From positions 1 to 64,000 of the forward strand of contig JADFIA010000001.1 in the NCBI GenBank assembly GCA_022566895.1: a DNA stretch of 64,000 nucleotides, in the 5' to 3' direction. The DNA is from Pseudomonadota bacterium (GTDB lineage Bacteria > Pseudomonadota > Alphaproteobacteria > Sphingomonadales > SMXR01). A model generated the notes under the pieces. The model worked only from the letters and a program-made list of their open reading frames with translations, did not search any database and was not told the DNA's origin. Shown piece by piece: positions 14,933 to 18,514 of the stretch. A program made the position numbers and the translations under genes. Each line of letters opens with the position of its first letter. The stretch's first letter is position 1.

Positions 14933-16027
14933 ATGAATGTCGTAAGTGAGTGGTACCGGAGAACCTTTGCGGACCCTCAGGTCGTGCTATTGGTGCTGAT
15001 TCTGATCGGTGCCCTGCTCCTTGTCAATTTCTTCGGCCAGATGCTCGCCCCGGCGATAGCAGCGGTAGTTATCGCCTTCCTGTTGGATGGCCCGGCCGGG
15101 CGGCTGCGGGAAAAGGGCCTTTCGAACTCACTTGCGGTGAGCATAGTCTTCGTGACTTTCCTGGCTCTTGCGGTGGTGGCATTTTTTGCCATCCTGCCGC
15201 CGATCACCGGTCAATTGGGACAATTCTTTCTGCAGCTGCCAAGCATGATGGCCTCGCTGCAGGAAACTGTTGTGGAGCTCTCGAGATCCAATCCTGAATT
15301 TTTCGACGAGACACAAATCGCAGATTTGATCGCCCGCCTGCAGAGTGAACTGATCGCCTTGGGCCCTGCCAATGTAAAGGCCTTGCTGGGCAATCTCGCT
15401 GGGGCGATCAGTCTGGTCGTTTACACGATCCTGGTTCCGGTGATGGTGTTTTTCTTTCTAAAGGACAAGAAACTGATCATGAGCTGGATTGCCGGATACT
15501 TGCCGAATCACAAACCCCTGGTTGACAAGGTCTGGGCCGAGGTGGTGGCAAAAGCCGGCGACTATGCCCGCGGCAAGGTCTACGAGATTTTCATTGTTGG
15601 GTTCGCGGCCTTTGTCGTTTTTTGGGCGATCGATTTGCGTTTTGCCGCCTTTCTGGCGCTGTTGACCGGTTTGTCGGTCATTATTCCCTATTTTGGCGCG
15701 GCGCTGGTAACACTTCCGGTCGCACTCGTGGCCTTTTTCCAATGGGGGATCGGCAGCGAAATGTTGCTCGCGGTGCTGGTCTATTTGGGGCTGCAGGCGG
15801 TCGACGGGAATATCTTGGCGCCGTTGTTATTCTCCGAAGTCGTCAAATTGCACCCTAACGCCATTATTCTTGCCATTCTAATCTTTGGCGGTCTCTGGGG
15901 CTTTTGGGGTGTCTTTTTTGCCATCCCGCTAGCCACCGTGGCGCACGCGGTCATCAAGGGCTGGTCGGAGCACAGATCCTTGGCCGGCGCGGTATCCCAA
16001 GCGGCCGATGATGAAAAAGGGGCTTGA
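14933..16027 (+). CDS. AI-2E family transporter (PerM-like)
   Basis: Multi-TM; DGNILAPLLFSEVVKLHPNAIILAILIFGGLWGFWGVFFAIPLATVAHAVI typical of the AI-2E/PerM C-terminus. Confidence 0.9.
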   Translation: MNVVSEWYRRTFADPQVVLLVLILIGALLLVNFFGQMLAPAIAAVVIAFLLDGPAGRLREKGLSNSLAVSIVFVTFLALAVVAFFAILPPITGQLGQFFLQLPSMMASLQETVVELSRSNPEFFDETQIADLIARLQSELIALGPANVKALLGNLAGAISLVVYTILVPVMVFFFLKDKKLIMSWIAGYLPNHKPLVDKVWAEVVAKAGDYARGKVYEIFIVGFAAFVVFWAIDLRFAAFLALLTGLSVIIPYFGAALVTLPVALVAFFQWGIGSEMLLAVLVYLGLQAVDGNILAPLLFSEVVKLHPNAIILAILIFGGLWGFWGVFFAIPLATVAHAVIKGWSEHRSLAGAVSQAADDEKGA

Positions 16028-16076
16028 CAAGCGCACGCTTTTATTAGACTATTTGGTTATAAACAGAATTATAACC
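16024..16076 (+). promoter_or_regulatory. Candidate promoter plus operator for the lysis cassette
   Basis: Consensus -35 TTGACA (16024-16029), weak -10 about 17 nt downstream, then a perfect inverted repeat GGTTATAA-ACAGAA-TTATAACC (16055-16076) at the predicted +1. Confidence 0.5.
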
Positions 16077-16133
16077 ACCAATTAGGAAACTTTTGGGCAT
16101 TCGCTTCGGCTTGCTTTCTTTTGGGGAGCTATT

Positions 16134-16607
16134 ATGCACCTCTCACCGCATTTCACACTTTCCGAAATGACCAAATCGCAAATCGCCCTACGTCGCGGCA
16201 TCGGCAATTCACTCGACCCAGGAAATCCAGACGATGCGGAAGTGATCAACAATCTGAGGCTCCTGTGCCTTGAGGTTCTGGAGCCGGTGCGTGAGGCTTT
16301 CGGTATTCCCTTTGCGCCATCGTCCGGTTACCGCTCGCCGGCCCTTAATACGGCGTTGGGCTCCAAGCCCACCTCGCAGCATGTCCTGGGGCAGGCGGTG
16401 GACTTCGAGCTACCGGGAATCCCGAACTTGAAATTGGCACAGTGGGTCCGAGACCATCTTAAATACGACCAGCTCATTCTGGAGTTTCATGAGCCCGGCG
16501 AGCCCGCCAGCGGTTGGGTGCACGTTTCCCTTAAGGAGACGGGCAACCGTCGGCGCGAGCTGACCATCAACCGCAAAGGTGTTTTCCCGGGACTTGGCAA
16601 GGCCTGA
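16134..16607 (+). CDS. Phage-type M15-family peptidase (endolysin-like)
   Basis: MHLSPHFTLSEMTKSQIALRRGI...FAPSSGYRSPALNTALGSKPTSQHVLGQAVDFELPG...WVHVSLKETGNRRRELTI: M15 SxHxxGxAxD zinc-site pattern, phage-like N-terminus. Confidence 0.88.
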   Translation: MHLSPHFTLSEMTKSQIALRRGIGNSLDPGNPDDAEVINNLRLLCLEVLEPVREAFGIPFAPSSGYRSPALNTALGSKPTSQHVLGQAVDFELPGIPNLKLAQWVRDHLKYDQLILEFHEPGEPASGWVHVSLKETGNRRRELTINRKGVFPGLGKA

Positions 16608-16645
16608 AGGGACGGTTTTGAGGCGCCGGCATTTTGACGGCTCAC

Positions 16646-16671
16646 AGCCCGGAGTAGTCCGGGCTTTTTTT
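16646..16671 (+). terminator. Intrinsic terminator 1, inside the lysis cassette
   Basis: AGCCCGGA-GTAG-TCCGGGCT followed by a T tract. Confidence 0.85.
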
Positions 16672-16681
16672 ATGAACCAAC

Positions 16682-16708
16682 GGCCCGGGATTTCCCGGGC
16701 CTTTTTTT
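16682..16708 (+). terminator. Intrinsic terminator 2, tandem to the first
   Basis: GGCCCGGGA-TT-TCCCGGGCC followed by TTTTTTT. Confidence 0.85.
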
Positions 16709-16725
16709 GTGGAAAGGAAGAAGAA

Positions 16726-16926
16726 ATGTTATCCAAACTTTTGGAAGGCGGTCTGTTAAGTGGCCGCAAAACCTACCTGGCGGCGGCTGGCGTCGCAATC
16801 TCGGCGGTGATCGCCTACCTGGTCGGCGACGCCGGCCTGATGGACACCCTGACGACCGTTGGCGAGGCTCTCGGGATCGGGTTCCTGCGGGCCGGGGTGG
16901 CCAAATCCGCAACCCCTCAAACCTGA
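16726..16926 (+). CDS. Small membrane protein, holin-like
   Basis: 66 aa MLSKLLEGGLLSGRKTYLAAAGVAISAVIAYLVGDAGLMDTLTTVGEALGIGFLRAGVAKSATPQT; strong SD GGAAAGGAAG; between endolysin-like and Rz-like genes. Confidence 0.65.
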   Translation: MLSKLLEGGLLSGRKTYLAAAGVAISAVIAYLVGDAGLMDTLTTVGEALGIGFLRAGVAKSATPQT

Positions 16927-17594
16927 TGGGGTTTTTAAAACTCGGTGGCCTCTTGGCCGCCCTGATGCTGATGGCGGCGGTTGGTTTTTTGTGGAAAGCC
17001 AACGAGCGAAAGGCGGCCGAACTTGGCACCCTGCGAGCCAGCCTGGCCGGTGCCGAGGCCACGATTGCCTTTAACGACCGCCTGGCCATTTACAGCCAGA
17101 GGCAAGCGGATGCGCTGGCCGCCCGGGATGCCGCCAACCAGAGAGCCATGGAGGCCCTTACCAATGAACGCAACAGATTGCGGGTCACCGTCGAAAGACG
17201 GGCCCTTGAAGATCCTTATGATTTTGGCGATAGTTTTGAGTTTGAGCTTGCCCGGCTGTTCTGTCTTTTCGAAGCCGGAAGTGATCGCGGTGCCCGCAAA
17301 GCCTGTAATCTTCATTCCCGCGAAGCCTACAAGCCCGAAATCGCCCTTACCCTTACCGTCACGCCCCAACTGGCCGAGCGGTGGGCCGAAGCCTGCGCCG
17401 CCGGAGAAGAACGATCAGAGGACTTCTGCCGTTGGTCGATAACCGGCTTTACAGCGCAAGGCGGGATCACGATCCTCAATCATCTGGAGCGGCTGGCAGC
17501 CTTTGCGCTGGCGCTTGAGGATCGGGCCGGTGTCCTGGAAGCCATGCTTCGCGAGCTGGCGGATCGGCCGCAGGCGGACCAAAAATCCCCTTAA
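16926..17594 (+). CDS. Rz-like i-spanin (N-terminal TM plus coiled-coil periplasmic domain)
   Basis: [97 protein letters not shown] start/stop overlap with the holin-like gene; Rz1-like ORF embedded in it. Confidence 0.68.
17206..17442 (+). CDS. Rz1-like o-spanin lipoprotein nested in the +1 frame of the Rz-like gene
   Basis: From TTG 17206 (or ATG 17218): (M)[77 protein letters not shown]; lipobox-like LPGC, 15 Pro in about 61 mature residues. Confidence 0.68.
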   Translation: MKILMILAIVLSLSLPGCSVFSKPEVIAVPAKPVIFIPAKPTSPKSPLPLPSRPNWPSGGPKPAPPEKNDQRTSAVGR

Positions 17595-18514
17595 GCCTCG
17601 GTCGGCAAGAAGCCTTCGATCGACAGGTAGCGCTCGCCGGAATCATAATTGAAGCCGAGGATGCGCGATCCCTCTGGAAGCTCGGGAATCTTTTTGGCGA
17701 TCGCGGCCAGACAGGCGCCCGAGGAAATTCCGATCAGACAGCCCTCCTCGCGAGCCGCGCGGCGGGCGTACTCCATGGCGTCCTGCTGGTGCACCAGGAT
17801 AACCCCGTCCAAGAGGTCCATAAAAAGGTTGTCCGGAATAAATCCGGCGCCGATCCCCTGGATCATATGCGGGCCGGGCTTGCCGCCGCTGATCACCGGG
17901 GAATGCTCCGGCTCGACCGCAAAAACTTTCAGATCCGGCCATTCTTTTTTCAAAAGCTGGGCGCAGCCGGTGATATGGCCGCCGGTGCCGACGCCGGTGA
18001 TGATACAATCGAGACCCTCGGGAAAATCGGCCAGGATCTCCTGGGCCGTAAAATTCCTGTGCACATCCAGATTGGCCGGATTGTCGAACTGGGAGGGCAT
18101 CCAGGCATTGTCCATGGTTTCAAGGATCTCCTCGGCCTTGGCCACGGCGCCGGGCATGCCCTTTTCCTTGGGGGTGAGGACAAATTCGGCACCATAAGCC
18201 AGCATCAGCCGCCGGCGCTCGATCGACATCGATTCAGGCATGACCAGCAGCAGCCGATACCCTTTCACTGCCGCCACCATGGCCAGGGCAACCCCGGTGT
18301 TGCCGGAAGTGGGCTCGACAATCACGGTGTCTTTGTTAAGGGATCCGTCCGCTTCCGCCGCTTCGATCATCGACAGCCCAATACGGTCCTTGATGCTGCT
18401 GGCGGGATTGACCCGCTCCTGCTTGATCCAGACCTCGTGGGTTGAGGGGAACAGTTTATTCACCCGGATGTGCGGCGTATTGCCGATTGTTTCAAGAATA
18501 TTGTCGGCCCTCAT
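17591..18514 (-). CDS. cysK: Cysteine synthase A
   Basis: [25 protein letters not shown]...[21 protein letters not shown]...GTGGHITG. Confidence 0.95.

Follow-up and report, generated by a model that had tools for sequence, protein, structure and literature searches.

Phage lambda keeps its lysis genes S-R-Rz/Rz1 under Q antitermination, with Rz1 embedded in the +1 frame of Rz, and the terminator tR' precedes the whole lysis cassette. The alpBCDE lysis genes on the chromosome of Pseudomonas aeruginosa are preceded by an intrinsic terminator that polymerase can pass with the help of AlpA (PMC7969949). The structure of AlpA has been described (PMC9371919), and the protein shares no sequence homology with other antiterminators (PMC7969949). 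Type 10 secretion systems, which act by lysis, are sets of holin, endolysin, and spanin genes found outside phages; examples are ChiWXYZ of Serratia and HolA-PepB-Rz-Rz1 of Yersinia (PMC10847048).

The locus described here lies in a window of 64,000 nucleotides, the whole stretch of DNA that was analysed, from an alphaproteobacterium of the order Sphingomonadales. It contains the following features.

14933..16027, plus strand: AI-2E family transporter, the conserved left border of the slot (PF01594, 1.2e-63; syntenic)
16024..16029, plus strand: candidate -35 element (TTGACA) of a separate M15 promoter, overlapping the AI-2E transporter stop
16134..16607, plus strand: M15_3 peptidase, endolysin-like, 157 aa, signal peptide not evident (PF08291, E=3.4e-16; phrog_894 endolysin, 2.4e-38)
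16646..16671, plus strand: predicted intrinsic terminator 1 (hairpin 16646-16665, then T run 16665-16671)
16682..16708, plus strand: predicted intrinsic terminator 2 (hairpin 16682-16701, then T run 16702-16708)
16713..16721, plus strand: Shine-Dalgarno region AAAGGAAGA ahead of the holin-like ORF, from the sequence; predicted to pair in part with the first U tract when the RNA reads through
16726..16926, plus strand: holin-like ORF, 66 aa, with a single clear TM segment at about residues 16-36
16926..17594, plus strand: i-spanin (Rz)-like protein, 222 aa, N-terminal TM segment followed by an Ala/Glu-rich helix (weak PHROGs match and architecture)
17206..17442, plus strand: o-spanin (Rz1)-like lipoprotein, embedded in Rz in the +1 frame (LPGC lipobox, 21% proline)
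17591..18514, minus strand: cysK-like PLP enzyme, the conserved right border (PF00291, 1.1e-68; syntenic)

The AlpA-controlled alpBCDE genes of P. aeruginosa are the best precedent for this locus. Both are host-chromosomal arrangements in which a strong intrinsic terminator, which polymerase would need to pass, directly precedes a run of actual or predicted lysis genes. However, the alpBCDE terminator is part of the 5' leader and lies 54 nt downstream of the TSS, and its antiterminator is known, whereas here the pair of terminators comes after a complete endolysin gene. Like the type 10 cassettes, the locus would combine a holin, a peptidoglycan peptidase, Rz, and Rz1 (here predicted) among essential genes with no phage around, but the peptidase comes first, followed by holin-Rz/Rz1, and the terminators split the cluster. 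The parts of this putative domesticated cassette are recognized in different ways: M15 by family match, Rz/Rz1 by architecture and a weak match, and the holin by position. The locus shares with lambda a predicted +1-frame Rz1 in Rz and, as we propose, terminator passage as a control step. In lambda, however, tR' stands before the entire cassette, whereas the window terminators are inside the cluster. The GTA_holin_3TM (PF11351)/M15 cassette of the order has the same slot and the same M15, but the window has a small holin-like ORF and spanins and no PF11351 match.

The gene calls of the earlier note, which was made from the sequence alone, proved mostly right. The assignment of 16134..16607 as a predicted M15 endolysin is firm, and the gene is intact, with the HxxxxxxD...H residues kept. 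The 66-aa ORF has no match in Pfam, PHROGs, or NCBIfam, and its putative holin label rests on size, one TM segment, and position. For the spanin, sequence gives weak evidence, but the architecture supports the call well. The Rz-like ORF matches the PHROGs Rz-like spanin at E=0.025-0.036 and has a homologue in a prophage of another genome, G099 (E=3.5e-8), where Rz1 is embedded in Rz in the same +1 frame. Its start overlaps the holin-like stop (TGATG), and its codon use is host-like in its own frame (0.735 versus 0.575 and 0.547 in the other frames). The Rz1-like ORF could start at TTG 17206 (78 aa) or ATG 17218 (74 aa); the TTG start gives it a typical signal peptide. The overlapping Rz and Rz1 frames are both intact, as is the lipobox, and stops and starts are coupled. 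The holin-like ORF has on either side an exact copy of a 14-nt direct repeat, TTTTTTGTGGAAAG, at 16703-16716 and 16985-16998. Recombination between the two would delete this ORF.

The earlier note placed these genes in a lysis cassette with a control reminiscent of phage late genes. The genes are in a chromosomal slot and do not form a phage lysis operon. The window neighbours read as housekeeping genes, namely, pyrD, FKBP, AI-2E, cysK, cysE, plsC, and nadB (of which AI-2E and cysK alone were run against Pfam). No phage genes for structure, replication, or integration adjoin the cluster, and no HK97 capsid gene was found in the assembly. A prophage lysis cassette was therefore rejected. An RcGTA lysis module was rejected as well, because there is no PF11351 match in the window genome (G000) and the RcGTA markers PF13547 and PF09343 are absent from the 8 family genomes.

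The contents of the slot, which is bounded by an AI-2E transporter and cysK/cysE, vary between genera of one family (L003-L006, L043, L044, and window positions 14933-17594). The order is AI-2E/M15/3TM holin/cysK in G004, AI-2E/M15/cysK in G006 and G007, with M15 alone, and AI-2E/3TM holin/cysK in G002 and G003, with the 3TM holin alone. G001 has AI-2E/M15/3TM, and cysK was not seen adjoining; its M15/3TM overlap was taken from ORF coordinates, with an early TAA in the M15 frame. That frame begins ATG TAA, so its start is either broken or elsewhere. Sister genera have separately lost M15 or the 3TM holin. Across the order, M15 is followed by the 3TM holin in 18 of 25 loci, mostly overlapping it or a few bases apart, and an orphan M15-3TM holin cassette is common. 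The locus is a chromosomal lysis-gene slot in flux and not a prophage.

Two strong G+C stem-loops with T tracts had been proposed between the endolysin-like gene and the holin/spanin genes, and folding, shuffling, and a terminator scan all confirmed them. Hairpin 1 is AGCCCGGA-GTAG-TCCGGGCT, with 8 pairs, 6 of them G-C (-15.2 kcal/mol), and hairpin 2 is GGCCCGGG-ATTT-CCCGGGCC, with 8 G-C pairs (-18.2 kcal/mol). The T runs are 7 nt each (U7 in the RNA). The positions stand as first given, and so does the run of seven after hairpin 1, although one of its T's is the last base of the stem. The loop of hairpin 2, first read as a 2-nt TT, was set at 4 nt (ATTT), because a 2-nt hairpin loop is impossible. 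Both hairpins have the G+C-rich stem of at least 5 to 8 pairs, short loop, and immediate U tract by which a terminator is recognized. Both look like canonical intrinsic terminators and are predicted to terminate transcription in vivo.

The 96-nt hairpin region folds 3.6 sd below its shuffles, and 0 of 200 shuffles were as stable. A strict scan of both strands of one 121.7-kb contig (121,693 bp) found 6 terminators; hairpins 1 and 2 are the sole tandem pair on the contig and have the cleanest T tracts of the 6. A Markov simulation of the contig, in six one-strand runs, produced 10 single terminators and 0 tandem pairs. In the 2.15-Mb assembly, the pattern CCCGG..CCGGG..T5 has 4 matches, two of them at 16646-16708. 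The tandem hairpins are well beyond chance. The exact hairpins were absent from the viral contigs searched. With so few strict intrinsic terminators on the contig (6 per 121.7 kb, both strands), the host may rely mainly on Rho.

The M15 gene may have its own promoter, with the candidate -35 element at 16024..16029. The motif GCTTGAC occurs upstream of M15 at the same place in G004 and G001; no good -10 element was found at 17 nt from the candidate -35. A palindrome, GGTTATAA-ACAGAA-TTATAACC, lies at 16055-16077, upstream of M15, and is a possible operator. Related TAACC/GGTTA inverted motifs are found upstream of M15 in G006/G007 and G001.

The holin, Rz, and Rz1 genes appear to be without a recognizable promoter of their own. 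No promoter-like site scoring 8/12 or more is located entirely within 16465-16725, as judged by the E. coli consensus, from which alphaproteobacterial promoters can depart. The last T tract ends at 16708 and the holin-like ATG is at 16726, which leaves the 17 nt reported earlier, and the tract nearly touches the Shine-Dalgarno sequence. The view that there is almost no room for a separate holin promoter was borne out. Such a promoter might instead lie inside M15 or be non-sigma-70, in which case the terminators would separate two units or shield cysK from convergent transcription. The minus-strand cysK stop overlaps the Rz stop with no terminator between the two, and plus-strand transcription would otherwise enter cysK without meeting another strong terminator. 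A weak 9/12 promoter-like site is also present inside M15, at 16434-16464. However, this site is at background density, any site upstream of 16646 would still precede both terminators, and one downstream would have to fit into 17 nt. We consider a dedicated promoter unlikely.

The strong terminators, the lack of a promoter-like site, and the closeness of the T tract to the Shine-Dalgarno sequence therefore make read-through the natural reading for holin and Rz. We suggest, with a probability of about 45%, that the M15 endolysin gene of the slot is inherited and that a prophage-type module was acquired behind the terminators, where a small holin-like ORF, Rz, and embedded Rz1 took the place of the 3TM holin. 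The transcript from the M15 promoter would end at the two tandem terminators. Holin, Rz, and Rz1 would be made only by polymerase that passes both, at a very low default level, and the cytoplasmic endolysin would do no harm before the membrane protein is present. Unpaired probabilities for the read-through RNA predict that the first U tract pairs with GUGGAAAG immediately upstream of the Shine-Dalgarno core; this pairing might damp holin translation further.

The history of the module bears on this proposal. In two prophages of the order, M15 is followed by a small TM protein, Rz, and Rz1, the same arrangement as in the window, and the window module resembles these cassettes. Neither cassette (L042 6762-8141 and L017 1480-2879) showed a terminator-like hairpin in the stretch from M15 to the small TM gene. 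The window M15 clusters with the slot copies and apart from the prophage copy, a grouping that has weak support (83/79). Most simply, a prophage-type module would have taken over from the 3TM holin in the window lineage, a direction that we infer. Neither tblastn nor a credible DNA match revealed phage or plasmid relatives of the holin and Rz, and scans of IMG/VR and GTDB by peptide pattern found none. Among 367 genomes of the class, there were no Rz relatives except the window's own. Two weak holin matches in the order were dropped, since they are located in unrelated long ORFs. Six phages with an M15 relative were compared for gene order only. A mobile insertion with flanking repeats was rejected, because no target-site-like repeat is present at the module ends.

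The earlier note had named absence of the hairpins from close relatives as a finding that would tell against its reading. Taken literally, that is what we found: the hairpins are absent from all family genomes with the slot and from 25 of 25 order loci. No relative has a terminator in the M15-3TM gap, and two weak matches lie inside the 3TM gene. Yet the small-holin/Rz/Rz1 module is absent from these hairpin-free slots too; among family slots, the terminators, small holin-like ORF, Rz, and embedded Rz1 occur in the window genome only. Because the relatives' slots lack the downstream module, the absence of the hairpins shows lineage specificity and does not refute gating. The terminators thus appear to be lineage specific and would have come with or after the replacement of the 3TM holin.

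The terminators and the module are confined to one genome, in a slot that is in flux, with separate losses of M15 or the 3TM holin in sister genera; this also fits a silent acquired remnant. In that case, the module landed behind the endolysin terminators or brought phage terminators with it, is unexpressed and unselected, and there is no lock; the terminators merely end the M15 transcription unit. The NusG search found no dedicated antiterminator and no promoter was found, which agrees with silence. However, neither the Rz/Rz1 frames nor the lipobox is disrupted, starts are coupled to stops, and codon use in Rz is host-like. On balance, we regard a remnant as somewhat unlikely. In comparisons between genera, M15 shows purifying selection (dN/dS about 0.06 for G000-G006, with dS saturated), and within the genus that lost the holin its dN/dS is about 0.3-0.4, versus 0.03-0.07 for flanking genes. 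This looser selection fits a loss of the locus function in some lineages. For holin, Rz, and Rz1, a default-off arrangement or silence is most likely, and a "lock" in the sense of regulated read-through, as opposed to a silent acquired module, is plausible.

Read-through or antitermination had been proposed for holin/spanin expression. The terminators and the lack of a consensus promoter in 16465-16725 argue for read-through; the lysis function of the cluster is putative. The antiterminator part did not find support. The earlier note called for a search for Q-like or NusG-like antiterminators encoded elsewhere; the NusG type was sought, and the assembly (86% complete) has a single NusG. An RNA-family element at the locus was rejected, as no Rfam leader element matched in the window. 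A true antitermination lock would need a stress-made factor, promoter-loaded or NusG-like, that modifies polymerase at the M15 promoter and carries it past both terminators, as AlpA does at alpBCDE. The architecture matches that precedent of self-lysis genes behind a strong chromosomal intrinsic terminator (PMC7969949). The single NusG and the absence of an HK97-type prophage and of an Rfam leader speak against it, but as weak negative evidence, because AlpA itself is without sequence homology to other antiterminators (PMC7969949). We judge such a lock to be very unlikely. Equally improbable is a host-controlled lysis switch in which production and storage of the endolysin come first and a putative antiterminator then adds holin and spanins, so that termination, and not a holin clock, would set the timing.

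Phage lysis genes have repeatedly been adopted by bacteria, and their safekeeping is understood in few cases. Terminator-gated lysis genes are already a known principle; what differs here is that the terminators are inside the cassette, with an evident module replacement behind them. The locus is a slot where sister genera gain, lose, and swap lysis genes, and its newest module sits behind two predicted terminators. Here, the idea that termination acts as a safety catch can be tested in a simple setting.
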